Source: Pseudomonadota bacterium (lineage in GTDB: Bacteria; Pseudomonadota; Alphaproteobacteria; Rhodospirillales; Magnetospirillaceae). From it: DNA of 34,906 bases. Of the stretch, positions 2,394-25,818 are shown piece by piece (the first letter of the stretch is position 1; every line of letters begins with the position of its first letter). The DNA lies in contig JAKAFA010000004.1 of NCBI GenBank assembly GCA_021818185.1, positions 1 to 34,906 of the forward strand. Direction: 5' to 3'. The notes beneath the pieces are model-generated. The model ran no database searches. It saw nothing but the letters and a program-made list of their open reading frames with translations, and had not been told where the DNA came from. The translations under genes were made by a program, and so were the position numbers.

Positions 2394-4391
2394 TCAGAAC
2401 AACTCGACATTGTCGCCCAGATGGGCATTCCGTGGCGGCGGGTCCTCATCCGCCGGCGAGATCAGGCTCAGCCAGTCGGCGATCCCGCGGTTCATGCCCT
2501 CGGCCGCCCGAAATTCCAGGTGGCAGCCTTTTTCGCTGACCCGGACCACCCGCGCCGGGATCTCGTCCGCGAAGCCGTCGGCGACGAAGCGGACCGCGGC
2601 CCCGACGGCAAGGCCGGTCTGCACCTCGACCAGCGCCCCCGATATCGACATGTCGCGGATGCGGCCGGCCTGCCGCGAGCCATCGGCGGACAGGATGGCG
2701 CCGGTGCTGACGCTGATGCGTTCATGGCGGCGGCGGTTGCCGGCGAAGGACTGGCGCAGGGTCGCCACCAGACGATGGCGCAGGGTGTCGACCTCGGCCG
2801 ACACCGAGCCCACCGTCTGCATGACGATCGACGACAATTGCTCGGCTTCGGTGGCGGTTTCCGAAATCTGGGCGATGGTCGCGGTGACGGTGCGGGTCTC
2901 GTTGGCCGCCTGTCGCGCCTCGTCGGAAATGGTGCCGGCGTTTTCCGCCTGGCGGCGAATGGTCGCCGCCATGCCCGCCGACATCGCATTGATGCGCTCG
3001 ACCACGCCGTCCACCCGGCCGATGGCCTCGGCCGCCTGGGCGACGGCCACCTGAATGCTGTCCACCAGGCCGCGGATGCGGCTGGTGGCGTCGGTGGTCT
3101 GCTGGGCCAGCCCCTTGACTTCGCCCGCCACCACGGCGAATCCCTTGCCCGCGTCGCCGGCGCGCGCCGCCTCGATGGTGGCGTTCAGCGCCAGCAGATT
3201 GGTCTGGCGGGCGATGGTGTCGATCAGCCCCACGATGTCGCCGATCTGCCGCGACGCCTCGGACAGGCCGGCGACGATGGTCGTGGTCTGGCGCGACTCT
3301 GCCGCCGCCCGCTCGGCGATGCGCTGGGACTCGGCGGTCTCGTCCGCCATCTGCCGCAGCGAGGCCAGCAGTTCGCCGGCCGACGCGGCGACCGAATTGA
3401 CGTTCCGGGTGGCCCCGCCCGCCGCCTGGGCGACCGCCCGGTTGCGCTCGCTTACCGAAGTGGCCTGTTCCAGCATGGTGCGGGCGATGACGCCGAGTTG
3501 GTCCGAGCGGCCGCTCACCTCGGTCACCGTGCCGTCGATCGCCCGTTCCAGTTGGTCCGACATGGACAGCAGGGTCTGCTTGGTCTCTTTCTCCGCCTCG
3601 CGCAGGATCTCCTCGCCCTGGCTGCTTTTTCCCACCAGATCCTGCAACAGGCCGCCGATGACCCGGGCATAGAAGGCCGGTCCGGCCAGCAGGCCGGCGG
3701 GACGCAGGGCGGCGGCGGCATCCCAGCGGCGCACCGCCAGCTGTCGCATCGCCTCGTTCAGCCCGGCGACCGGCGCCGCCACGCCGCGCCACATCGTCCA
3801 GACCAGGCCGCCGATTCCCAGCGCCGACGCCGTCGCTCCGGCCACGCCCGCCCACGGCCCCCCGGACAGGGCGCCGAGCATCGCCGCCCCGGCCCCCGCC
3901 AGGCCGAGCGCCGTCCAGGAGAGCGGCAGGGCCAGCGGCGCCGCGCCTCCCGGCCGCTGGCCCGGCGCGGCCCGCACCGTCATGCTGGTGACGCCCAGGG
4001 CCCGGAAATAGCTGGCGTAGACCATGTCGTCGCCAAGGATGTGGCGAATCAGCCAGTCCCGCAGGAATTCGAAGACGTCATTGGCGATCACCGGCTCGCG
4101 CCGGTAGCGTTCGCCCAGTTCCGCCACCTGCTCCTCCAGGCGCTGATGGCTGCGGTGGTGGTCGGCGGCCCCCGGAAATCCCCAGTTGGCGAAGAGGTCC
4201 TCCTCGCGCCGGAAATGGTACGAGACGTAACGCGCCAATTCCTCGAGAATGCCGCCCAGCACCGTGGTCCGCCGCTCCTGATTGGCGTCCCACAGCTGGT
4301 TGATCAGACGGATCAGCGTCTGATGGTCTTCGTCGAATTCGGCGACGCCGACACTGAGGCGCGGCTGCCACTCGATGAGGGACATATGCAT
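2394..4391 (-). CDS. Methyl-accepting chemotaxis protein with N-terminal bacteriohemerythrin and C-terminal PilZ domain
   Basis: N-term [21 protein letters not shown]...[10 protein letters not shown]...HHRSHQRL...[12 protein letters not shown] (hemerythrin Fe ligands); two hydrophobic segments; MCP hairpin [40 protein letters not shown]-term RRRHER...DMSISGA (PilZ RxxxR and DxSxxG). Confidence 0.95.
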
Positions 4392-4590: not shown

Positions 4591-5145
4591 ATGCCGTCCC
4601 CCGCCCTGTCCTGCGCCGGCGATGCCAGCCCGTGGATTCGTCGTTTCGCCCCGCTGGTCCCGGCCGGCGGCCGGGTGCTCGACCTGGCCTGCGGCGGCGG
4701 TAGGCACGCCCGGCTGTTCCTGGAAGGCGGGGCGGCGGTCACCTGTCTGGACCGCGACCTGTCGCTGGTCGCCGATCTGGCCGGCCGCGCGGAGTTGATC
4801 GCCGCCGATCTGGAGGACGGTTCGTCCTGGCCGCTGGCCGGGCGACAATTCGACGCGGTGGTGGTGGTCAATTACCTGCACCGGCCGCTGCTGCCGGCCC
4901 TGGTGGAGGCGGTGGCACCCGGCGGCCTGCTGCTCTACCAGACTTTTGCCGCCGGCCACCAGCGCCACGCCCGTCCGCGCAACCCCGACCATCTGCTGCA
5001 ACCCGGCGAATTGCTGGCGGCGGTGGCCGGCTGCTTGCAGGTGGTGGCCTACGAGGCGGGGCAGGACCCCCGCCCCGGCTGTCCCACGGTGATCGAGCGG
5101 ATCTGCGCCGCCCGCACTGCGGAACCGGTACCGCTTTACCCCTGA
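4591..5145 (+). CDS. Class I SAM-dependent methyltransferase
   Basis: [31 protein letters not shown] (motif I), [36 protein letters not shown] opens at 4495; internal ATG at 4591 preferred. Confidence 0.85.
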
Positions 5146-7106
5146 CGCCGCCCGGTCAGGGCCGTGAACACTTCCCGTCCCTGCTGCGGGCCCTGGTCGA
5201 ACTGAACGTGGATGTGCCCATGTTCGGCGGCGCGGGTCTCGAAGCTGGCGGTGCGCCCGGCCACCGCCAGGGTGCCGTGCTGCCCCGGCTGGCCGTTGGG
5301 AACCCCCGCGACATTGGCACCGCCTTCCGAGACGTCTTCCACCCGGCCCACCAGGGTGTTGTCGCCCAGCCGGACTTCGCAGGCGGCATCCACCTTGACC
5401 CGCTCGAACATGCGCCGGTCGGTTTCCTCGGTGCTGGTGCGCACCAGCCGGACCAGCACCTGACGCAGGTCGCTGATGCTCTCGGCCACCTGGAACGAGG
5501 CGGAACGCACTCCGCCGGCCTGTTGCCCGGCCTCGGCCGCATCCATCGACACCTCGGCGATCAGCTTGGCGACCTCCTGCGCGGCGCTGCTGGTTTCGAT
5601 GACGTTGCGGCTGATTTCCTGGGTGGCGGCGCTCTGCTCCTCCATGGCGGCGGCGATGGACGACGCCACCTCGTCGATGCGGCCGATGGTACCGCCGATG
5701 CCCGACACCGCGGTGACCGCCGCGCCGGTCAGTTCGGTGATCTTGGCGATCTGCAGGGAGATCTCCTCGGTGGAACGGGCGGTCTGGTTGGCCAGGTTCT
5801 TGACCTCGTTGGCCACCACGGCGAAGCCCTTGCCCGCCTCGCCGGCCCGCGCCGCCTCGATGGTGGCGTTCAGCGCCAGCAGGTTGGTCTGGCTGGCGAT
5901 ATCGTTGATCAGCTTGGCGATCTCGCCGATGCGGCCGACCTCCTCGGCCAGCGAGCGGATGGTGGCCTGCGCCCCCTCGCCGTCGGTCACCGCCTCGGAG
6001 GTGACGGTGCCGGCATAGGCCACCTGGGACGAGATTTCGCGGATCGACGCCGCCAGTTCCTCGGTGGCCGAGGCCACCGCCTGGGCGTTGGCCAGCGCCT
6101 GTTCCGCCGCGGCGGCCACCCCCTGGGAGCTGCCGCTGACCCGTCCGGCCGCTTCGGCCATGCCCTCGGCGTCGCGGGCCATGTCGCCGGTGCGCGCCGC
6201 CACCACCGCCACCGCCGCGCCCGCCTCGCGTTCGACCGTCTCGGCCATCTGCTGCAAGGCCTGCCGCCGGTCGGCCTGGGCCTTGCGCTCGTGTTCGCTG
6301 CGCTCTTGCGCGGCATAGGCCAGCTTGGCCTTCATGGCGCGCAGCAGGTTGGTCAGCCGGGTGAACTCGCTGCTGGCCGCCGCCTCGATCTCGTAGGTGA
6401 AGTCGCTGCGCGCAATGGCATCGAAATGCGCTTCGAACCGGCGCAACGGCCGCTGCACCGCGGCCAGCAGCGCCAGGCCGGCCCCGCCGGCCGCCAGCAC
6501 CCCGGCCGCCACCACGCCGGCCACCGCCAGCCAGCCGGCCCCGGACAGCCCCAGGCCGCCGGCCACGGCCGCGGTCAGCGCGTCGAGCGCCAGGACCAGG
6601 GCGAAGCGCCCCGACAGGCCGGACACCCAGCCGGCCACCCGATGGCCCAGGCCGGTGGGAATTGCCAGCCCTTCCACGATGCGGATGTCATGGGCCTCGC
6701 CCTTCCGGATGCGCGCGTAGAGCTGATCGGCCGCCCGCACCTGCTCGCGCGACGGCTTGGAGCGGATCGAGATATAGCCGGTGATCCGCCCGCCCTCCAT
6801 CATCGGGGTGACGTTGGCCCGCACCCAATAGAAGTCCCCCGTCTTGGTGCGGTTCTTCACCAGCCCTTCCCACGGACGCCCCGCCTTGATGGTTGCCCAC
6901 AGGTCGGCAAAGGCGGCGGGCGGCATGTGCGGATGCCGGATAAGGTTGTGGGGCGCCCCGACCAGTTCCGCTTCGGTATAGCCCGAGATCTTGACGAAAG
7001 CAGCATTGACAAATGTAATCCGCCCACCGGTATCTGTGCGTGACACCAGCAGCTCGTCATCCGGCATTTCGACTTCGCGATCGGTGATCGGCTCGTTGAC
7101 ACGCAT
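5136..7106 (-). CDS. Aer-like PAS methyl-accepting chemotaxis protein with C-terminal PilZ domain
   Basis: [29 protein letters not shown]...[21 protein letters not shown]...[19 protein letters not shown] (Aer-type PAS), TM hairpin, HAMP-like, [42 protein letters not shown]-term RRMFER...[11 protein letters not shown] to 7391 would overlap the csp gene; ATG at 7104-7106 matches the Aer N-terminus. Confidence 0.93.
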
Positions 7107-7353
7107 GAATACCCCCAGAGTCGGCAAGCGACGCGCAGAATAGTCCAGTCGCATTGCGCTTGCCACGCCTATCCTCTTGGACGTGCCATGCACCTTGAAC
7201 ATCGCGGCCGCGCCCCCTATATAGGTCGCGTCGAATTCGTTGGGCGTTTCCCACGGCGGCGTCGTATCCGGCGCACCACCTGGCATATTCCCAGTCCTGA
7301 GTTTGATGCCCTCCACCTGTCGTGCGGGGGCAACGCCAGTTTGCGGAGGGTCT

Positions 7354-7560
7354 ATGTCCACTGGCACGGTGAAATGGTTTAACGCGACCAAGGGTTATGG
7401 TTTCATCAAGCCCGACGATGGTTCGGCGGACGTGTTCGTACATGTCTCGGCGGTCGAACGGGCCGGCATGAGCAATCTCGGCGAGGGGCAGCGGCTGTCC
7501 TACGAGCTGGAGCGCGGCCGCTCCGGCAAGCTGGCCGCGGTGAACCTCCGCGCGGCCTGA
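7354..7560 (+). CDS. Cold-shock protein (CspA family)
   Basis: [38 protein letters not shown]...; canonical RNP1/RNP2. Confidence 0.97.
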
Positions 7561-12611: not shown

Positions 12612-14579
12612 TCAACGGCCCAGGGCGTCGGCCAGCAGGCTGCGCAGGCGGGCCGGGTCGAGGGGTTTGCGCAGCACCGAGAAGCCGGAGACGTGGCTGG
12701 CGCCGCCGGTCGCTTCGGTGTCGCCGGTGAACAGGAAGGCGGGAACCGCCCGGCCTTCGGCGGCGCGGATGGCGTTGATGGCGTCGATTCCGGCATTGGC
12801 GGCGTGGAGGTGCAGATCCGCGATGACCGCGTCGGGACGAAGCCGTCGTCCGGCCAAAGCCGCCAGCGCCGCCGCGGCGCTCTCGGCCACCACCGGCCGG
12901 CAGCCCCAATTGGCCAGCAGGATTTCCAGGCCGTCCAGGATATCGGGGTCGTCGTCCAGCACGACGACGGTGGCGCCCTGCACCTCGCGCACCTCGTCGC
13001 TCTCGGCGGCGGCGCCATCGGGCAGCGGGAACCAATCCTCGACCAGCGGCACCGTGACTCCGAAACATGAGCCATGCCCCAGGACGGAATGCACCTCGAC
13101 GCGATGGTCCAGCAGACGGGCCAGCCGCTGCACGATGGCCAGCCCCAACCCCATGCCGGTTCCCCGCCCGCTCAGGGAGGGCTGGCTGACCTGATGGAAT
13201 TCACGGAAGATGGCCAGACGCTGATCGTCGGGGATGCCGGGCCCGGTATCGCAGACCCGCAACACCGCCGCGCCGCCCTTCAGCTTGGCCCCCAGCAGAA
13301 TCCGCCCCTGGCGGGTGTAGCGGATGGCGTTGGACAGGAAATTGCCGAGGATGCGCGACAGCAGGCGGGGATCGCTGCGCACCGCCAGCGACGAGGGCAG
13401 CACCGTCAACTCCAATCCGGCCGCCGCCGCCTGCGGCCCGTAATTGGCCTCGAGCCGCTCGAACACGTCGTTGACCAGGAACAACTGCGGCTCGGCCTTC
13501 ATCACGCCGGCGTCCAGCTTGGACATATCCATCAGGGCGTCGAACATTTCCTCCATGCCGCGCAGGCTGGTCTTCATCGACTGCACGATGGTCCGCCCCT
13601 GCGGGGTTGAAATGTGGTTGTCCAGCGCCGAGGTGAACAGGGCCAGGGCCTGCAACGGCTGCCGCAGATCGTGGCTGGCGGCGGCCAGGAAGCGCATGCG
13701 GGCCCGGATCGAGCGCTCCGCCTCCTCGTTGGCCTGGGTCAGCGCCTCCTCCTTGCGCTTGAGGTCGGTGACGTCCTGGAAGGTGAGCAGCGAGCGGGTC
13801 CCTCCCTGCACGGTGAAGCGGCGCACCGAGGCCAACACCCACAGCGGCAGGCCGTCGGCCCGCAGGACCCGCAATTCCACGCGTTGCGGCTCGCCCATTC
13901 CGCGCAGCGCGGCGCACAGCCGGTCGGCCCCCTCGTCGCCGGCGAAATGGAAGTCCTGGGTCGGCCGCCCGGCCAGGTCGCCGGGGGGAACACCCAGCGC
14001 CTGATGGGCGGCGGCGTTGGCCCGCAGGATGGTGCCGTCCATCCCCACCGTCAGCATGGGCAGCGGCACAGCCTCGACCAAGGCACGCAGGCGTTCCTCG
14101 GTCTCCCGCACATTGGCTTCGGAGCGGCGGATCTCGGAGATGTCGGCCAGAATGCCGACGAAGGCGCACAGGGCATCGTCGGCGTCGCGGACCGGGCGGA
14201 GCGAGACCCGCATCCAAAACTCCTCGCCATCCTTGCGGTAGTTCACCAACTCCACCGTGGCGGCCCGCCCCTCGGCCACGGCGGCACGCAAGTTGGCGAC
14301 GGCGGCAGGGTCGGTTTTCGGCCCCTGGAGCACCGACAGGGAACGGCCGAGCACTTCCGCTGCGGAATAGCCGGTGATGGCGGTGAACTCGGCGTTGACG
14401 AAGCGGACCGGATTGCCGGCAAGCCGGGGATCGGTGATGACGATGGCGGCGGGCGCGGCATCGATCGCCGCCAAAAACGCGCCCCAATCGAGCCCGCCCC
14501 CCGTCGCGCCGCCGCCGTTGCTGCCCGCCATGCGATACGCGCCCGTCCCTTGCCCGGCAACCATGGATGGTTCTCCCAT
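12612..14579 (-). CDS. Hybrid sensor histidine kinase (LOV-like PAS - PAS - HisKA - HATPase - REC)
   Basis: LOV-like PAS (ITDPRLAGNPVRFVNAEFTAITGYSAAEVLGRSLSVLQGPKTDP), second PAS, ASHDLRQPLQAL H-box, NFLSNAIRYT, DTGPGIPDDQ, GMGLGLAIV, C-terminal REC with DAVIADLHL. Confidence 0.93.
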   Translation of the reverse strand: MGEPSMVAGQGTGAYRMAGSNGGGATGGGLDWGAFLAAIDAAPAAIVITDPRLAGNPVRFVNAEFTAITGYSAAEVLGRSLSVLQGPKTDPAAVANLRAAVAEGRAATVELVNYRKDGEEFWMRVSLRPVRDADDALCAFVGILADISEIRRSEANVRETEERLRALVEAVPLPMLTVGMDGTILRANAAAHQALGVPPGDLAGRPTQDFHFAGDEGADRLCAALRGMGEPQRVELRVLRADGLPLWVLASVRRFTVQGGTRSLLTFQDVTDLKRKEEALTQANEEAERSIRARMRFLAAASHDLRQPLQALALFTSALDNHISTPQGRTIVQSMKTSLRGMEEMFDALMDMSKLDAGVMKAEPQLFLVNDVFERLEANYGPQAAAAGLELTVLPSSLAVRSDPRLLSRILGNFLSNAIRYTRQGRILLGAKLKGGAAVLRVCDTGPGIPDDQRLAIFREFHQVSQPSLSGRGTGMGLGLAIVQRLARLLDHRVEVHSVLGHGSCFGVTVPLVEDWFPLPDGAAAESDEVREVQGATVVVLDDDPDILDGLEILLANWGCRPVVAESAAAALAALAGRRLRPDAVIADLHLHAANAGIDAINAIRAAEGRAVPAFLFTGDTEATGGASHVSGFSVLRKPLDPARLRSLLADALGR

Positions 14580-14848: not shown

Positions 14849-15115
14849 ATGCTGCGAAGCAAGCCGTATAGGAAAAGGGATACAACGCTTACGCTCACCC
14901 CCACCGCCACCTTGGGCTCCGATACGGTCGATGAGCCCGTCGAGGGGCCGATGGGCGGACTGGACTTCGACTCCCACAGCTTCTGCCACGATCCGGTCTA
15001 TCGCCGATTGCTGGGCGAACTGCTCGCCGAACTCGAAGGCGAAGATGACGATTCCGACGAGGACGACGACGAGGACGACGACGAGGACGACGACCGCCCG
15101 CTCCGGCCCAACTGA
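14849..15115 (+). CDS. Small Asp/Glu-rich protein of unknown function (88 aa)
   Basis: ATG preceded by AGGAGGGG; MLRSKPYRKRDTTLTLTPTATLGSDTVDEPVEGPMGGLDFDSHSFCHDPVYRRLLGELLAELEGEDDDSDEDDDEDDDEDDDRPLRPN; 13 bp from the next gene. Confidence 0.65.
   Translation: MLRSKPYRKRDTTLTLTPTATLGSDTVDEPVEGPMGGLDFDSHSFCHDPVYRRLLGELLAELEGEDDDSDEDDDEDDDEDDDRPLRPN
15059..15094 (+). repeat. 3 x 12-bp perfect tandem repeat (GAGGACGACGAC)
   Basis: Direct reading; encodes the EDDD repeats of the small acidic protein. Confidence 0.95.
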
Positions 15116-15128
15116 TGAAGGTGGCGTC

Positions 15129-15848
15129 ATGACCGAAGCGACCCTGAACGCAGCGCCGCCGCCGCAGGCGCCCGTGGCGCTCGCCGTCGAAGACAGCCAT
15201 ATGGTCAGCGAGATCGTCGGCCGGTTTGAGCCGCAGGAGCGCAAGGAGATGCGCATCCTCGACGACCCCCGCCGGCTGGTGGAGCATCCCGACGAAGCCC
15301 CGGGGGAGGTGACCATCATCTCGTACCCGGTGATGAAGCAGCTGGCCAAGTACCATATGGACGAGCTGGCCGCATTCTGCGGCCGCAACAAGGTGGTGCT
15401 GCTGATCCGCAGCCCGGAATTCCTGGATTCCATCGGCTTCCTCGAATTCGCCGATGGGGTGATCTTCGCGGACGCCACCATCGAACGGGTGCGGGACATC
15501 CTGCAACTCAGCAAGTCCGGCTATTCCATCCTGCCGTCGGCGGCGGTAATGGACATCGTCACCGACCGGCTGCGTTGCGACACCCTGCAACGGCTGTCGC
15601 CCATCGAACTGAACATCCTGGATCAGGTGCGCCTTGCCAAGACCAACCGCGCCATCGCCCGCTCCCTCGGCCTGACCGAGGCCAACGTCAAGACCAAGGT
15701 CCGGGCCATCCTGAAGGCGTTGAAGTTCCAGAACCGCACCGAAGCCGCGGTGTTTGCCGCCCGCCAGAACGAACTGATCCGCCAGACCGTCGCCAGCCGC
15801 GGCCCCGAGAAAAGCATGGAGGAGGGCGAGAGCGGGCTGACCCACTGA
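15129..15848 (+). CDS. NarL/LuxR-type transcriptional regulator with degenerate receiver domain
   Basis: LSPIELNILDQVRLAKTNRAIARSLGLTEANVKTKVRAILKALKFQNRTEAAVFA (LuxR HTH); receiver-like N-term lacks phospho-acceptor Asp (VTIISYPVM) and switch Lys (GVIFADA). Confidence 0.88.
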   Translation: MTEATLNAAPPPQAPVALAVEDSHMVSEIVGRFEPQERKEMRILDDPRRLVEHPDEAPGEVTIISYPVMKQLAKYHMDELAAFCGRNKVVLLIRSPEFLDSIGFLEFADGVIFADATIERVRDILQLSKSGYSILPSAAVMDIVTDRLRCDTLQRLSPIELNILDQVRLAKTNRAIARSLGLTEANVKTKVRAILKALKFQNRTEAAVFAARQNELIRQTVASRGPEKSMEEGESGLTH

Positions 15849-15997: not shown

Positions 15998-16738
15998 TCA
16001 CACGCTCGGATTGGCCTGTTCCATGCCCGGCACCGACGTCGGCTGGGCCGACGGCAAGGCGCCGCGGCGCGGGGTCATCGGAGCGTTTTCCGCCGACAGC
16101 CCGTTGTTCAGCGCCCAGATGGCCGCCTGAGTGCGGTTGGCGGCATTGATCTTCTTCAACACGCCCTTGAGATGGACCTTCACCGTCGCCTCGGTGATGT
16201 TCAGCTTCTTGGCGATCACCTTGTTGGGGTGGCCGTTGAGCAGGCAGCGCAGGATCTGGATTTCCCGCTCCGACAGGCCCTCCAGGTCGGGTGAGGCGGC
16301 CGCCGGGCGCTGGGTGTCGACCTGGCCGGAAATCAGCATGGCGGCCAGGCGGGTGGGAAACACCTTCTCGCCCAGCAGCACCAGCTTCAGGGATTGCTTC
16401 AAGGCGTCGGGCGAGATGTTCTTGAGCAGGTAGGCGTCGGCGCCGGCCTCGAAGCAGCGGGCCAGGTTGTGGATGTTGCGCGTGCTGGCGGCCAGGACCA
16501 CCAGCTTCAGTTCCGCATATTTCTCCCGCATTTGCTGCAACACGGAAATATCGTCGGCGCCGGCATCGAATTCCACGAGGCAGACCTTGGGACGTTGCCC
16601 CTGCTCCAGTTTCTGCATGCCCTCGGCCATGCTGTCCGCTTCGTCGGTAATGGTGAAGGCTGAGCCGTCCAGAAGCTTCTTCAAGCCTTCCCTGAACAGC
16701 TTGTTCGCATCGATCAGAAGCATTTCGACATTGTTCAT
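15998..16738 (-). CDS. NarL/FixJ-type response regulator with Glu at the phospho-acceptor position
   Basis: MNNVEMLLIDANKLFREGLKKLL...PKVCLVEFDAGADDISVLQQMREKYAELKLVVLAAS...GADAYLLKN...LSEREIQILRCLLNGHPNKVIAKKLNITEATVKVHLKGVLKKINAANRTQAAIWA. Confidence 0.93.
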   Translation of the reverse strand: MNNVEMLLIDANKLFREGLKKLLDGSAFTITDEADSMAEGMQKLEQGQRPKVCLVEFDAGADDISVLQQMREKYAELKLVVLAASTRNIHNLARCFEAGADAYLLKNISPDALKQSLKLVLLGEKVFPTRLAAMLISGQVDTQRPAAASPDLEGLSEREIQILRCLLNGHPNKVIAKKLNITEATVKVHLKGVLKKINAANRTQAAIWALNNGLSAENAPMTPRRGALPSAQPTSVPGMEQANPSV

Positions 16739-17031: not shown

Positions 17032-18675
17032 TCAGGGGATCATGAACCGCAGCACATAGGCCTGGAGCATGGTGATCACGCCGACGATGCCGACCATCAT
17101 CAGGCTGTGCTTCACGGTGAAGCGGAACATATGGGATTCGTGCCCCACCAGGCCGACCGCGGCGCAGGCCACCGCGATGGATTGCGGCGAAATCATCTTG
17201 CCGGTGACGCCGCCGCTGGTGTTGGCCGCCACCAGCAGGGTGGCGGGCGCCCCGATCTGATGGGCGGTGGTCGCTTGCAGGCCGCAGAACAGGGCGTTGG
17301 ACGAGGTGTCCGATCCGGTCAGGAACACGCCGATCCAGCCGAGGAATGGCGAGAAGAACGGGAACAGCACGCCGGTTCCGGCCAGCAGCAGCGCCAGCGT
17401 GGTCGACAGGCCCGAGAAATTGGCGACGAAGGCGAAGGCCACCACCGCGCCGATGGTGAAAATCGGCTTTCGCAGTTCCCACACCACTTCACCCAGGGTC
17501 TTCAGCCCGGTGACCGGCCCCATGCGCAGAACCAGCATCGACAGCACCGCTGCCGCCATGATGGCGGTGCCGGTCGCCGAGATCAGGTTCAGGCTGTAGA
17601 CGGCGGCGATGGCGGTGGGCTTGGCCACGATGGGCGCGGCCTTCAGCACCATCTTGTCCAGGCCGGGAATGGCGAAACTGAAGGTGGTGCCGGCCAGCGG
17701 CCCGCCGGCGGCGAACAGCGCCTTGAAGGCCGGCAGGCTCCACAGGGTGACCATGGCGGTCAGGATCAGGAAGGGCGACCACGCCTTCACGATCTGCCCG
17801 GCGGTATACTCGTGGGAATGCTTCTCCTGCTCGGTCTCGGCCTTGAAGCGGAAGATGTGCTTGGGATGCCAGACCTTGAGGAACAGCGCGGTGGACACCA
17901 GGCTGACCAGCGACGAGATGATGTCCGGCAGCTCGGGACCGATGAAGTTCGAAGCCAGGAACTGACCCGCCGCAAAGCTGCCGCCGGCCACGAACACCGC
18001 CGGCCAGGTTTCGCGGATGCCTTTCCAGCCGTCCATGATCATGATGATCCAGAACGGCACCAGCATGGAAAGCAGCGGCAGCTGGCGGCCGGCCATGGCG
18101 CCGATCTTCATGGCATCCATGCCGGTCACCTTGCCGGCCATGATGATGGGAATGCCCATGGCGCCGAACGCCACCGGCGCGGTGTTGGCGATCAGGCACA
18201 GGCCGGCGGCGTAGAGGGGGTTGAACCCCAGCCCGACCAGCAGCGCACCGGTAATCGCCACCGGGGCGCCGAATCCCGCCGCGCCTTCCAGGAAGGCGCC
18301 GAAGGAGAAGCCGATCATCAGCATCTGGAGCCGCTGGTCCTCGGTGATCGAGACCACCGAGGCGCGGATGATGTCGAATTGGCCGGTCTTGACCGTAATG
18401 CGGTACAGGAAAACGGCGGCGACGATGATCCAGGCAATAGGCCACAGCCCGATGGCGAAGCCGTCGGCCGCCGCAGCCAGCGCCATGCGGCCGGGCATGC
18501 CATAGAAGAACACGGCCACCAGCAGGGCGATGGCCACCGTCAGCATGCCGGCGACGTGCCCCTTCATGCGGAACACGGTCAGCGCCAGGAAGAAGAAGGC
18601 GATAGGCAGCGCCGCGAACAGCGACGAAATCCACAAATTACCAGCCGGGTCGTAGACCTGGGTCCAGGGTTGCAT
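17032..18675 (-). CDS. lldP: L-lactate permease
   Basis: [43 protein letters not shown]...[30 protein letters not shown]...[23 protein letters not shown]; LldP/LctP family. ORF opens at 18876; ATG at 18673-18675 is the family start. Confidence 0.97.
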
Positions 18676-18937
18676 GGGCGTTCCTCCCGTCCTTGCCAAT
18701 GATCCGGCCTTGGTAAGTTTTTTGGACCGGTCTGCCAAAGTGGATAACGCGCTTAGCCCGAATTTGCAAATCAGAAAATGACGTTTGGCAGGGGGGCTTG
18801 GGCATCGCACCCGCTCCGGCCGCGCCTGGAAAAGAAATTTTACCACTTTACCAGATCGGTAAGCTCGGCTACCCATAGAGAGGAAACGGCCGCGCAGACG
18901 GCCGCACGACCGAGGATGCGACCCGAAAGGACATGGG
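18676..18937. promoter_or_regulatory. Divergent lldP/lutA control region with inverted repeats
   Basis: TTACC-AGATC-GGTAA at 18848-18862; extra TTACC at 18840 and GGTAA at 18712; CTGCCAAA (18732-18739) and its inverted copy TTTGGCAG (18784-18791). Confidence 0.6.
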
Positions 18938-19699
18938 ATGACCCATTCGCTGCCGCCGCACCGGCCCGATACCGTCTATTTCTTCGGAACCTGCCTGATC
19001 GATCTTTTCTATCCCCAGGCCGGACTGGCGGGGATGGAGTTGCTGCGGCGCGCCGGCCTCAGGGTGGTGTTCCCGCCGGCCCAGACCTGCTGCGGCCAGC
19101 CCGCCCGCAACAACGGCTACATGGACGAGGCGCGCGCCATCGCGCTCCGCCAGATGGAGGCCTTTCCCCAGGACTGGCCCATCGTCGTGCCCTCGGGCTC
19201 ATGCGCCGGCATGATGCGCGTCCATTACCCGCAGCTGTTCGCCGGCCGCCCCGAAGCGCCGCAGGTCGGGGCCTTCGCCGCCCGGGTCTATGAGCTGACC
19301 TGGTTCCTGGTCCATGTCCTCGACCTCAAGCTGGAGGACAAAGGCGAGCCGGTGACCGTCACCTGGCATGGCTCGTGTTCCGCCCAGCGCGAGATGGGCG
19401 TGGTGGACGAGCCCAAGCGCCTGCTACGCTCGCTGACCAACGTCACTCTGGTGGAAAACCCGCGGGAGACGGAATGCTGCGGCTTCGGCGGCACCTTTTC
19501 CGTCAAGCAGCCCGAAGTGTCGGCCGCCATGGTGAGCGACAAGGTGGCCGCGCTGGAATCCACCGGCGCCCGCCATGTGGTGTCGGGCGATTGCGGTTGC
19601 CTGATGAACATCACCGGCGCCGCCGCCAAAGCCCGCCGCGACCTGACGGGCAGCCACATCGCCGAATTCCTGTGGGAGCGCAGCCATGGACGCCCATAA
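18938..19699 (+). CDS. lutA: L-lactate utilization Fe-S protein (LutA/LldE)
   Basis: [49 protein letters not shown]...[14 protein letters not shown]...[25 protein letters not shown]. Confidence 0.95.
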
Positions 19700-21161
19700 T
19701 TCTGCGGGACAGACGCACGGGATTAATTCCGCGCACAAACCGCGCGGGGATTTCACCGCCCGCGCCCCGGCCGCCCTGGCCAATCCCACCCTGCGCGCCA
19801 ATTTCCGCCGGGCCATGGACGGCCTGATGACCAAGCGGGCGGCGCAATTCGCCGACCGCGACGCCTGGACGGCGCTGCGGGCCCGCGGCGCCGCAGCGCG
19901 GGCCAACGCGCTGGCCCGCCTGCCCGAATTGCTGGAACGGCTGGAGGATCGCTGCACCGCCAACGGCATCCGGGTCCACTGGGCGGAGACCGCCGCCGAG
20001 GCCAACGCCATCGTGCTCGCCATCCTGCGGGAGGCGGGCGCCACGCGGGTGATCAAGGGCAAATCGATGGTCAGCGAGGAGATTGGCCTCAACCATCACC
20101 TGGAGGCCCACGGCGTCACCGCGGTGGAATCCGACCTCGGCGAGTACATCATCCAGTTGGCCGGCGAGGCGCCGTCCCATATCGTGATGCCCTGCATCCA
20201 CAAGAACAAGGCCGAGATCGCCCAGCTGTTCGCCGAAAACATTCCCGGCCAGCCCTATACCGAGGACGTCGACTCCCTGACCGCGGCGGCCCGCCGCGCG
20301 CTCCGCCAACGCTTCGCCGCGGCCGAGGCCGGCATTTCCGGCGTCAATTTCGCGGTGGCCGAGACCGGCACCCTGGTGTTGATCGAGAACGAGGGCAACG
20401 GCCGGCTGTCCACCACCCTGCCGCCGCTGCACATCGCGGTGACCGGCATCGAGAAGGTGGTGGAGCGGCTCGACGACGTGCCGCCGCTGCTGGCGCTGCT
20501 GCCCCGCTCCGCCACCGGCCAGGCCATCACTACCTATGTCAACATGATCAGCGGCCCGCGCAAGCCGGACGAGAAGGACGGCCCGCGCGAAGTCCATCTG
20601 GTGCTGTACGATGGCGGGCGGTCACGGGTCTATGACGATGCCGAGCTGCGCGACACCCTGCGCTGCATCCGCTGCGGCGCCTGCATGAACCACTGCCCGG
20701 TCTATGCCCGGGTCGGCGGCCATACCTACCGCTTCGTCTATCCCGGCCCGATCGGCAAGATCCTCAGCCCCCAGTTGGAGGGCCTGGATTGCGCCGGCGA
20801 CCAACCCTTCGCTTCCTCGCTGTGCGGCGCCTGTTCCGAGGTGTGCCCGGTGCAGATCCCGCTGGCCGACATCCTGGTCCGCCTGCGTCAGGAGGCGGTG
20901 CGCCCTTCGGCCACGCCGGCGGTGAAAGGCGGCGGCAGCCAGGCCGGCCTGGCCGCCGATCTGGGCTGGGCCGGCTGGCGGCTGGTCTACGGCCATCCGG
21001 CGCTGTACGCCCTGGTATCGCGCCTGCTGGCCCGCCTGGGTAACCTGATCCCCGCCTCGGTGCCGATGCTGCGGCAATGGACCCGCTTCCGCACCAAGCC
21101 GCGCTTCGCCGCCCGCACCCTGCATGAACTGGCCGCCCGGGGAGGCTTCGACCGTGAGTGA
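19686..21161 (+). CDS. lutB: L-lactate utilization Fe-S protein (LutB/LldF)
   Basis: RVIKGKSMVSEEIGLNHHLEAHGVTAVESDLGEYIIQLAGEAPSHIVMPCIHKNKAEIAQLF...CIRCGACMNHCPVYARVGGH...CGACSEVCPVQIPL. Confidence 0.97.
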   Translation: MDAHNSAGQTHGINSAHKPRGDFTARAPAALANPTLRANFRRAMDGLMTKRAAQFADRDAWTALRARGAAARANALARLPELLERLEDRCTANGIRVHWAETAAEANAIVLAILREAGATRVIKGKSMVSEEIGLNHHLEAHGVTAVESDLGEYIIQLAGEAPSHIVMPCIHKNKAEIAQLFAENIPGQPYTEDVDSLTAAARRALRQRFAAAEAGISGVNFAVAETGTLVLIENEGNGRLSTTLPPLHIAVTGIEKVVERLDDVPPLLALLPRSATGQAITTYVNMISGPRKPDEKDGPREVHLVLYDGGRSRVYDDAELRDTLRCIRCGACMNHCPVYARVGGHTYRFVYPGPIGKILSPQLEGLDCAGDQPFASSLCGACSEVCPVQIPLADILVRLRQEAVRPSATPAVKGGGSQAGLAADLGWAGWRLVYGHPALYALVSRLLARLGNLIPASVPMLRQWTRFRTKPRFAARTLHELAARGGFDRE

Positions 21162-21807
21162 CGCCCGCGCACGCATCCTGGCCCGCCTGCGGGCCGCCCG
21201 TCCCTCCATCCCGCCCGCCCGTCCCGACTGGGCGCCGCCCGCCATCCCCCCGGCCGAACGCCTCGCCCGCTTCACCGCCATGCTGGAAGCGGTCCATGCC
21301 GAGGTGCACGCCGTCCCCGCCGCCGCATGGCCGGCCCATCTGGCTCCGCTGCTGGCCGCCAAGGGGGTGCGGACCGTCCTGGCCGCACCGGCCACCTGGG
21401 CGGGCAAGGCGCTGGCCGCCGATTGGCCGTCCCGCCCCGACGCGCCGCATCTGGTCGCCTATGATCAGCCGGTCGAGGCGTTGAAGGACCGGTTGGTGGC
21501 CGGCATCGACGCCGCGGTGACCACCACCCTGGGCGGCATCGCCGAGACCGGCAGCCTTGTCCTGTGGCCCACCCCCGACGAGCCGCGCCTGATGAGCCTG
21601 CTGCCTCCCATCCACGTCGCCCTGGTGGACGAGGCCGCCATCACCGACACCTTGGCCGGACTGGTGGCGGCGGCCAACTGGGCGGCGGCCATGCCGACCA
21701 ACGCGCTGCTGATCTCCGGCCCGTCGAAGACCGCCGACATCGAGCAGACCCTGGCCTATGGCGTCCACGGCCCGAAGGAATTGGTGGTCCTGGTCCTCAC
21801 CCGCTGA
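21154..21807 (+). CDS. lutC: L-lactate utilization protein (LutC/LldG)
   Basis: GTG start overlapping the lutB stop; [51 protein letters not shown]...[30 protein letters not shown]. Confidence 0.95.
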
Positions 21808-21817
21808 AGGGGGTGCA

Positions 21818-23044
21818 ATGGCACTGACATTCGATCCCCGTTTCGGGCAGGAACTCTGCGACATCTTCGCCGGTGAGCTGGGCTATACCTGCTCCTTCAT
21901 GGGCGAAGGCGGGCGCATCGTCGCGTCCAGCGCGCGCGAGCGCATCGGCACCCCCCACGCCATCGGCGCCCGCATCATGAGCGGTGAAATGGACGAATAC
22001 GCCGTCGCGCCCGACGAGGCGGCGCGGTCCGGCGGCGCCATGCGCGAAGGCATCAACATGGCGGTCGACGTGGAAGGCCGCCGCCTGATCAATTTCGGCA
22101 TCGCCGGTCCGCTGGCCCAGGTGCGCCCCCTGGCCCGCATCGTCTGTTTCACCATCACCGCCCTGCTGCGCAGCCGCCTGGAGGAAAAGGCCATCGTCGA
22201 TTCCTTCGCCCGGGAAACCGCCGATCTGGGGACCAAGATGGTCGAGGTGGCCACCGACATCGACGCGGTCGGCCGCAAGCTGGCCGAGCAATCGGCGTTG
22301 CTGGCCGAACTGCGGCAGGGAATGCGCGACCTATCGTCCAGCAACGGCCGCATCGTCGCCGATGTGGGCGAGACCCTGGACGGGGCGCGTGCCGCCTCGG
22401 ACGAGGCCGAACGGTCCCACGGACGGGTGGTGGATTCCCTGGCCGGCATCGACGCCTTGGCCCACATGGTCACCGATGGCCGCGACCTGCTGCTGGCCCT
22501 GCAACAGGCGCTGGCCGACGTGGTGACGGTGGCGGAAGGCATCGACCGCATTTCCCGCCAAACCAACCTGCTGGCCTTGAACGCCACCATCGAAGCGGCT
22601 CGGGCCGGCGAGCACGGCAAGGGGTTCGCGGTGGTGGCCGCCGAGGTCAAGGGCCTGTCGCGCCAGGCCGGCTCCGCCGCCGCCGAGATCCGCCGCACCC
22701 TGGGGGAACTCACCGGCACCGCCCAGCGCCTGATCGAACAGGGCGACGCCAGCGCGGCGCGGGCCGGCACGCTGGAGCAGGAAACGGCGGCCATCGGCGA
22801 TACCCTGGCCCATGTGCGCGCCGCCCTGGCGCGCATCGCCGGCCGCATGGACAGCATCAGCCGCGATGCCGGCGCCATCAACGACCGCTCGGCGGCCCTC
22901 AGCCGCGAGATCGACGGCGCCGCCGCGGGACTGGACGATTTCACCAGCCGACTGACCGGCGCGCATCACCGCCTGACCGAATTGCTGGCGGCCCGCGAAC
23001 GGCTGGAGGCCCTGACCAAGCAGGCCGGAGTGACCCTCGCATGA
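21818..23044 (+). CDS. Soluble methyl-accepting chemotaxis protein with N-terminal sugar-diacid-recognition (CdaR-like) domain
   Basis: N-term [46 protein letters not shown]...[43 protein letters not shown] resembles Diacid_rec; MCP signature [41 protein letters not shown]; no clear TM segment. Confidence 0.88.
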
Positions 23045-25818
23045 CGACCCACCTTGCCGACACCGACGCGCTAAGCCGCGACCTGATCGGAGTGCTGCCG
23101 GCCGAACGGCTGATCCGCGACCCGCTGCGCCGCCTGGCCTGGGGCACCGACGCCAGCTTCTACCGCCTGGTGCCGCGCCTGGTGGTCAAGGCCGAAAGCG
23201 AGGAGGAAGTCCGCCAGGTTCTTGCCGCCTGCCGCCGCCATGGCGCCCCGGTGACCTTCCGCGCCGCCGGCACCAGCCTGTCCGGCCAGGCGGTCACCGA
23301 TTCGGTGCTGCTGGTGCTGGGCGATGCCTGGGACCGCATCGTCGTCGAGAACGGCGGAGCCACCATCCGCCTGCAGCCGGGCGTGATTGGCGCCGAGGCC
23401 AACCGCCGGCTCGCCGCCTTCGCCCGCAAGATCGGCCCCGATCCGGCCTCCATCGATTCGGCCAAGATCGGCGGCATCGCCGCCAACAACTCGTCGGGCA
23501 TGTGCTGCGGCACCTCCGACAACAGCTACCAGACCCTGGCCTCCATGCGGCTGATCCTGGCCGATGGCACGCTGGTGGATACCGGCGATGCCGCCAGCGT
23601 CGCCGCCTTCCGCGCCAGCCATCGGACCCTGCTGGAGGGGCTGGCCGAGCTGGGCCGCGCCGCCCGCACCGATGCCGCCCTGGCTCAGCGCATCCGCGCC
23701 AAGTTCGCCATCAAGAACACCACCGGCTATGCCATCAACGCCCTGATCGATTTCGACGATCCGGTGGACATCCTCCAGCACCTGATGATCGGGTCCGAGG
23801 GCACGCTGGGATTCATCGCCGAAATCACCTACCGCACGGTGGCCGAGCACGCCCACAAGGCCAGCGCGCTGCTGCTGTTCGCCGATATCGGCGAGGCCTG
23901 CCGCGTCACGGCCCGGCTGAAGCAGGCCCCGGTCGCCGCCGTCGAGCTGATGGACCGGGCCGCCCTGCGCTCGGTGGCCGGCATGCCTGGCATGCCGGAT
24001 TCCCTCGCCAACCTGCCCGCGGGCGCCGCCGCCCTGCTGGTGGAAAGCCGCGCCGCCGATGCCGGCGCCCTGGCCGCCAACATCGCGGCAATCGTCGCCG
24101 CCCTGGCCGACAGCCGCCCTCTGGCGCCGCCGGACTTCACCGCCGACCCCGCCGAGTTCGGCAAGCTGTGGAAGGTGCGCAAGGGCCTGTTGCCGGCGGT
24201 GGGCGCGGTGCGCAAACCGGGCACCACGGTGATCATCGAGGACGTGGCGGTCCACACCGATCACCTGGCCGCCGCCACCCTGGACCTCCAGGCGGTCCTG
24301 GCCCGCCACGGCTATGCCGAGGCGATCCTCTTCGGCCACGCCCTGGACGGCAACCTGCACTTCGTCTTCACCCAGGATTTCGGCAACGAGGCCGAAGTGA
24401 CCCGTTACGCCGCGCTGATGGACGAGGTCTGCCGCCTGATCGTCGAGCGTTACGACGGCTCGCTCAAGGCCGAGCACGGCACGGGGCGCAACATGGCGCC
24501 GTTCGTCGAGCTGGAATGGGGCCGCGCCGCCACCGACCTGATGCGCGCCGTCAAGCGGCTGCTGGACCCCGACAACCTGCTCAATCCCGGCGTGGTGCTC
24601 GATGACAATCCGCGTGCCCATCTACAGAATCTGAAGCCGCTGCCGCCCGCCGACCCGCTGGTCGACACCTGCATGGAATGCGGCTTCTGCGAGCGCATGT
24701 GTCCGTCCCACGGCATGACCCTGAGCCCCCGCCAGCGCATCACCGGCTGGCGCGAGATCGCCCGCCGCCGGGCCGCCGGCGAGGATGCCGCGGCGCTGGA
24801 AGACGCCTATGCCTATCAGGGACTGGAGACCTGTGCCGCCTGCGGCCTGTGCGCCACCGCCTGCCCGGTGGGAGTCGAAACCGGATTGCTGACCAAGGCG
24901 CTGCGCGGCCGGCGGATGGGTCCGGTCGGCCGCATGCTCGGCCGCTTCGCCGCCACCCATTACGGCGCCGCGCTGGCTGCCGGCCGCGGCGGGCTGGCCG
25001 CCGCCGCCCTGGCCCGCCGGGTGGCGGGCGGGGCCTTGCCCACCTTCGGGCGCCCGCCCCTGCCCCTGCCCGCCCGCCTGCCGTCGGCGGAATCCGGCGC
25101 GGGAGCGGGGCCGGCGGTGGTCTATGTGCCCAGTTGTGCCAACCGCAGCTTCGGCCCGGCCGCCGACGACCCGGAACCCGGCACGCTGCCCGAGCGCTTC
25201 GCCGGACTGCTGGCCAAGGCCGGCTTCCAGGTGGTGTGGCCGGGCAACCTGGACCGGTTGTGCTGCGGCCAGGCCTTCGAAAGCAAGGGGCTGGCCGATC
25301 TGGCCGATGCCAAGTCCGAAGAGATGGCCGCCGCCCTGCTGGCGGCCAGCGAGGGCGGACGGCTGCCGGTGGTCATGGACGCTTCGGCCTGCACCCAGCG
25401 GCTCAAGCGGGTCCTGGCCGGCCGGCTGGAGGTGCTGGACTCCATCGAGTTCCTGCACGATGCCGTCCTGCCCCGTCTGGAGGTCACCCCCCAGGCCCGG
25501 CCGGTGCTGGTCCATATCAATTGCTCGGCCCGGCGCATGGGCCTGGCCGACAAGATGGTTGCGCTGGCGCGGGCCTGCGCCACCGAGGCGGTGGTGCCCG
25601 ATGGCGTGGGATGTTGCGGCTTCGCCGGCGACAAGGGCTTCACCACGCCGGAACTGAACACCTATGCCCTGCGCCGCCTGCCGGCCGGCGTGCCGGCGGA
25701 ATGCGAGGCCGGCTATTCCTCGAACCGCACCTGCGAGATCGGGCTGGCCGCCCATGCCGGCCTGCCCTATCGCTCGATCGTCTATCTGCTGGACCGGGTC
25801 AGCCGGCCGAAAGCGTGA
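23041..25818 (+). CDS. FAD-binding / 4Fe-4S D-lactate dehydrogenase (Dld-II type)
   Basis: FAD-binding type 4 domain ([24 protein letters not shown]...[16 protein letters not shown]...[16 protein letters not shown]...[15 protein letters not shown]...[19 protein letters not shown]) plus C-term [30 protein letters not shown] and a CCG-type cysteine region. ATGA overlap with the MCP. Confidence 0.93.

Follow-up and report, generated by a model that had tools for sequence, protein, structure and literature searches.

Which signal does a LOV-like domain read once its photoactive cysteine has gone, and does such a domain still hold a flavin? The question is raised by a hybrid sensor histidine kinase of an alphaproteobacterium of the family Magnetospirillaceae, encoded in the window analysed here (the whole stretch of 34,906 nucleotides, contig JAKAFA010000004.1). 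The first PAS domain of this kinase (PAS1) was followed by sequence and fold comparison, by phylogeny and through the orthologous loci of related genomes.

The Kinase and Its First PAS Domain

The kinase gene lies on the minus strand at 12612..14579 and encodes 655 aa (open reading frame and Pfam matches), with the Pfam domain order PAS_9-PAS_9-HisKA-HATPase_c-Response_reg. PAS1 covers residues ~37-149 (14132..14471, minus strand), as delimited by Pfam, PDB matches and an AlphaFold2 model, and it is the top PAS_9 match of the whole genome. The first-pass annotation had put the peptide at 14145-14462; it is indeed encoded there, and the strand, which had been omitted, is the minus strand. The motifs of PAS1 read GRSLSVLQGP, VNYRKDGEEFWM and FVGIL. 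Within it, a pattern search and the orthologue alignment pick out the signature NYRKDGEEFWM (14211..14243, minus strand), in which the equivalent of Asn482 is kept and Asn492 has become Met (AsLOV2 numbering, here and below).

The second PAS domain (PAS2) was located by Pfam at 13742..14102 and the C-terminal receiver, by Pfam and motif reading, at 12627..12968, both on the minus strand. The active-site residues of the kinase are the usual ones. The HisKA domain carries the motif ASHDLRQPLQAL, the His motif being present in all orthologues, and the receiver has its DDD, the phospho-acceptor Asp (IADLHL), the Thr and the Lys.

PAS1 Belongs to the LOV Lineage

PAS1 aligned with solved LOV domains at E ~5e-27 and an identity of ~45-50%, a likeness that is far beyond chance. 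When the PDB was searched with the query and with a profile of the orthologue clade, the 60 best matches listed were all LOV domains or LOV fusions. The AlphaFold2 model of PAS1 had a mean pLDDT of 96.7, and the best 50 matches of a fold search with this model were again all LOV structures or LOV fusions. The best of them were 9vf7, 6ph2, 3t50 and 6y7u, with TM ~0.8-0.94; Meiothermus MrLOV, Brucella LOV-HK, CagFbFP and the solved structure of miniSOG Q103L were among the matches.

A tree built from 77 PAS and LOV domains united ten of the 11 orthologues in one clade (support 99/98), and this clade was set together with the cysteine-bearing LOV domains (Cys-LOVs) against generic, FixL-type and NifL/Aer-type PAS domains (support 83/81). 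The reference sequences used for AsLOV2, YtvA, NifL, FixL and Aer are presumably those of the proteins named; two KCNH reference sequences were verified against records. After positions 449, 450, 451, 492 and 513 had been masked and the set enlarged by another 87 non-Cys PAS rows, the LOVs and the clade lay on one side of a branch supported at 86.8 and the clear non-LOV PAS rows tested on the other. The supports of the LOV-side branch (81-87) were not starred, and most LOVs in these trees had been gathered by their similarity to PAS1 or to its clade. As far as the 106 residues behind this verdict show, PAS1 is, by its sequence, a LOV-lineage domain by descent. The first-pass annotation had read the domain as a LOV scaffold, a claim open to refutation by a position outside the LOV clade; the phylogenetic placement leaves PAS1 with the LOV domains. 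Exclusion of the clade as sister to the Cys-LOVs was tested with p 0.28, and on that account the loss of the cysteine, as opposed to its never having been there, is likely rather than proven.

Other assignments were tried and rejected. A generic PAS_9 domain that merely resembles LOV is ruled out by the PDB matches, the fold search and the masked-column tree. A heme PAS of the FixL type would have its proximal His in helix F-alpha, and none was found in that helix of PAS1 (TDPAAVANLRAAV); moreover, a joint grouping of the core clade with FixL-type PAS was rejected at p 9e-52. The FAD redox PAS domains of the NifL/Aer/MmoS type have a conserved Trp in F-alpha (PMC10468136), and this Trp is absent from PAS1. 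The Arg467 column holds Trp in NifL and Aer, Arg in the query and Arg or His in the clade.

Substitutions in the Flavin Pocket

Orthologues of the kinase were found in 16/55 genomes of the same bacterial family, and nine orthologous domains from eight genomes of this family constitute the core clade. The alignment agrees with the residue readings of the first-pass annotation, which are, in AsLOV2 numbering, N449S, C450L, R451S, N492M and Q513L. The Cys450 column of the core clade holds Leu or Met in all nine members, the adduct Cys of GxNCRFLQ being present in none; the Asn492 column holds Met in all nine, and the Gln513 column Leu in eight and Met in one. Leu453, Gln454 and Asn482 are kept throughout (9/9, the query included). 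Arg467 is Arg in seven members and His in two, and Arg451 is kept in eight, its change to Ser being private to the query copy; the change of Asn449 to Ser is common to four of the nine, the query among them. Most members of the clade have both phosphate arginines. In the query, the positions that hydrogen-bond the flavin C4=O/N5 (Asn492 and Gln513) are thus occupied by Met and Leu, and both residues for contact with the isoalloxazine ring (Asn482 and Gln454) are present.

This set of replacements was compared with 99 Cys-LOV domains, most of them drawn from the same class and phylum. Of these, 94 retain Asn492, and the Gln513 position is Gln in 76, Leu in 9, Met in 6 and Ile in 4, so that Cys-LOVs often lose Gln513 by itself and seldom Asn492. 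A DNA pattern for NYRKxGxxFWM matched a single one of 385 genomes of the class, the source genome itself, and was absent from the 384 others.

Chance decay of a single gene is ruled out, since the substitutions are common to nine orthologues and Met492 is invariant. Adduct chemistry was likely lost in a single event, earlier than the common ancestor of the clade and within one alphaproteobacterial family, and the alignment suggests that the Cys-Asn-Gln set at the C4a/N5/O4 pole of the flavin was rebuilt to Leu(Met)-Met-Leu in the same step. Conservation in the pocket columns exceeds that of the remaining columns by little (0.63 vs 0.52, permutation p 0.07), and for this reason the retention of Gln454 and Asn482 may reflect plain ancestry.

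Two further groups of cysteine-less domains were seen. Loci L064, L065 and L066 of the same family carry a separate LOV-like clade in which Cys is replaced by Ala (GRNARFLH) and Asn492 and Gln513 are kept. Outside the family, locus L121 of genome G808 encodes a cysteine-less LOV-like domain from frame residue 498 on, with Cys changed to Met, Gln changed to Leu and Asn492 kept.

Adduct Formation and Flavin Binding

The first-pass annotation had expected that no flavin-cysteinyl adduct is formed, and this holds: the photoactive Cys is absent, so the adduct cannot form, and absence of adduct photochemistry can be predicted from the sequence with near certainty. As the Cys for the usual light chemistry is lost, also in the family counterparts, the domain most likely senses something other than light. 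That a light-signal scaffold was reused for another signal is a fair hypothesis by analogy with the PAS domain of KCNH channels (PMC10468136).

The accompanying suggestion that the domain may bind no flavin does not follow from the substitutions: loss of the residues in question is tolerated singly in a cysteine-less YtvA LOV domain, and the essential ones are invariant in the clade. In a deep mutational scan of this domain (C62A), N104I, N104S, Q123L and R79L kept fluorescence, and changes at N94 as well as Q66L abolished it (PMC4041573). YtvA N94 corresponds to AsLOV2 N482 and Q66 to Q454, exactly the residues kept in the clade. The Gln to Leu variant miniSOG Q103L, whose structure is among the fold matches, likewise leaves a bound flavin plausible. 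N104 and Q123 of YtvA have been argued to back each other up (PMC4041573), and the argument for flavin retention is limited by the fact that the clade lost both Asn492 and Gln513; the literature searched contained neither a double variant of these two residues nor a triple variant of the query type. Riboflavin is bound by YtvA about as well as FMN (PMC3836802), which indicates that the phosphate contact (Arg451, Ser in the query) is not essential for flavin binding in that protein.

What the Domain May Sense

Our leading reading, to which we give a probability of about 0.45, is that PAS1 may be a cysteine-less LOV domain with a flavin still bound and with redox as its signal. Asn482, Gln454 and the phosphate/ribityl contacts would keep the flavin (FMN, riboflavin or FAD) in place, and no adduct would form. 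Reduction of the flavin and protonation of N5, instead of a thioadduct, would alter the domain, and the redox state or oxygen would be reported through the C-terminal helix to PAS2 and the histidine kinase without a flip of Gln513. The output of the kinase would pass via its own receiver, in concert with the adjoining LuxR-type regulators. Flavin reduction elicits a response in Cys to Ala variants of VVD and YF1 and in the natural BAT-LOV* (PMC4682037), Gln to Leu variants of YF1 and NmPAL still signal (PMC9098866), and in AsLOV2 Met residues close to the flavin's polar end shift the midpoint potential upward by up to 40 mV (PMC11151830). Counted against a bound flavin is that the query copy also lost Arg451 and Asn449, both of which are Ser.

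Nearly as likely, the scaffold is reused without flavin: the apolar pocket would bind a small, largely hydrophobic ligand, or would fill itself with Leu and Met side chains, and ligand or packing would alter kinase activity, as in the KCNH/EAG PAS. The replacement of three polar or reactive side chains around C4a/N5/O4 by Leu or Met, then kept (Met492 in 9/9, Leu513 in 8/9), looks like selection for apolarity. The FixL heme PAS reads Leu-Met-Ile in the alignment columns where the clade reads Leu/Met-Met-Leu, and the KCNH PAS is a member of the LOV cluster in which hydrophobic residues replace the polar flavin-binding ones (PMC10468136). The clade, however, keeps Asn482 and Gln454, both of which the KCNH PAS lost, and the phosphate arginines, mostly kept, would have no obvious use in the absence of a flavin-like ligand; in addition, the KCNH PAS groups elsewhere among the LOVs.

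It is improbable that PAS1 is a structural relic, a ligand-free PAS domain for dimerisation or signal relay that is on its way to loss. Among more distant genera, two orthologues (L006 and L007) carry an eroded form of the domain, and related kinases lack it or have a remnant of it at L008 (G234), L045 (G255), L046 (G251), L047 (G253) and L048 (G249). The N-terminal peptide MxSFLxxxxG of the LOV-bearing copies is also found in L046 and L048, which points to deletion of the domain and not to a mis-called start. With two orthologues eroded and about five missing it, PAS1 is not essential to the kinase. Among the core copies, however, PAS1 is better conserved than PAS2 (mean pairwise identity 0.55 vs 0.49), and invariant new residues such as Met492 are not expected from neutral decay. 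Light sensing by another route has a very small chance: blue light would photoreduce a bound flavin to the semiquinone and give a LOV-like response without an adduct, as was shown for cysteine-less VVD and YF1 (PMC4682037). Such a route needs both a flavin and a reductant, however, and photoreduction of the natural BAT-LOV* is poor (PMC4682037). Nor is a second LOV-like domain evident in the genome, where the closest other domain scores <=45 bits to the query.

Neighbouring Regulators and Genomic Surroundings

Next to the kinase lie two LuxR-type regulators. RR2 (15129..15848, plus strand; domain matches and orthologous loci) is a LuxR-type HTH regulator with a degenerate N-terminal half, in which no recognisable receiver domain was found by Pfam. 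It is divergent from the kinase and convergent with RR1, and it is a conserved neighbour at 62-86% identity. RR1 (15998..16738, minus strand; Pfam and orthologous loci) is a LuxR/NarL-type regulator of 246 aa that is 76-93% identical across genera, far above the conservation of the neighbouring kinase. At the thresholds used, RR1 and the kinase occur in exactly the same 16/55 genomes of the family, and RR1 is absent from the other 39. An alignment read by eye shows Glu (LVEFD) for the phospho-acceptor Asp and Ala (VVLAA) for the Thr of its receiver in 9/9 aligned orthologues; RR1 may therefore be a pseudo-receiver protein.

It is conceivable, though less likely than not, that a LOV lineage was turned by coordinated change of Cys/Asn/Gln to Leu/Met/Leu around a retained flavin into a dedicated non-photochemical redox sensor, with its output going to a fixed module of three genes in which the LuxR-type regulators look non-phosphorylatable.

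An identification of RR1 with FlcA of Azospirillum was unsupported. FlcA is 215 aa long (PMC4264754) and RR1 246 aa, and the Azospirillum homologues of RR1 that were found are 42-55% identical to it. In the two Azospirillum neighbourhoods inspected, the hybrid kinase was absent beside the RR1 homologue.

Between the kinase and RR2 lies a small ORF of 88 aa (14849-15115, plus strand) with a very acidic, Asp/Glu-rich tail; three of the orthologous loci contain weak matches to it (33-37%). Beyond the regulators, at 17032-25818, a lactate utilisation cluster encodes an LldP-type permease, a CCG-domain protein, LutB-like and LUD proteins and an FAD-oxidase/4Fe-4S protein. No lactate-utilisation genes were found beside the kinase among the orthologous loci examined, and these genes are for this reason probably outside the kinase-regulator module. 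The window also holds a chemoreceptor with an N-terminal hemerythrin and a C-terminal PilZ domain (2394-4391, minus strand) and a second one with PAS and PilZ domains (5136-7391).

Significance of the Clade

The clade appears to be a new, monophyletic LOV variant with a Leu/Met-Met-Leu set, confined within the genomes sampled to part of a single family. Its members are a naturally occurring, monophyletic group of LOV domains that had Cys, Asn492 and Gln513 replaced together and kept the other flavin contacts. These proteins make it directly testable which parts of the LOV pocket a flavin requires to stay bound and whether redox alone can drive LOV signalling. The clade is also a warning that the annotation "LOV-like" does not amount to light sensing, and searches that demand the majority of the conserved LOV residues would overlook a variant of this kind.

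Comparison with Known Systems

The best NCBIfam match of the C-terminal core of the kinase is the NahK/ErcS family NF041832, at 362.6 bits, which is under the curated cut-off of 400 bits for membership. Like the NahK/ErcS hybrid kinases, the protein has a HisKA-HATPase-REC core and the motif SHDLRQPLQAL. The PAS domains of ErcS' and PA2177 of P. aeruginosa are predicted to bind other cofactors, e.g., heme (PMC8694187).

PAS1 has the predicted fold of the canonical LOV domains (phototropin LOV2, YtvA, Brucella LOV-HK, Meiothermus MrLOV and the Chloroflexus parent of CagFbFP) and ~40-50% identity to them. Both carry DP..NP, LQGP.TDP and NYRKDG.FW together with Gln454, Asn482, Leu453 and Arg467. 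Unlike them, PAS1 has no adduct Cys, and it has Met for Asn492 and Leu for Gln513, to which the query copy adds Ser for Asn449 and for Arg451.

Thousands of cysteine-less domains of the LOV cluster are on record, and the natural LOVs characterised so far include Cys-less as well as Gln-less ones. In a census of LOV cluster 11, 57% of the domains have the Cys and ~43% are cysteine-less (PMC10468136); these 43% and BAT-LOV* are, like PAS1, Cys-less LOV-related PAS domains in signalling proteins. A survey of natural Cys-less LOVs found the Cys replaced by, e.g., Ala, His or Pro and required at least nine of the other ten conserved residues (PMC4682037). Such a filter would miss the clade, in which Cys is replaced by Leu or Met and both Asn492 and Gln513 are lost as well.

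Like the clade, the PAS of KCNH channels (EAG/hERG) is a LOV-cluster domain that lacks light chemistry and has an apolar pocket; it differs in that Asn482 is replaced by Met or Phe and Gln454 by Tyr or His. A specific kinship of the two is doubtful: they group separately, and a tree test that joined them gave p-AU 0.09, which neither supports nor rejects the joint grouping. Finally, the LOV-deltaQ receptors (PMC9098866) share the change of Gln513 to Leu with the clade, but those characterised keep the Cys and the photocycle, unlike the domains described here.
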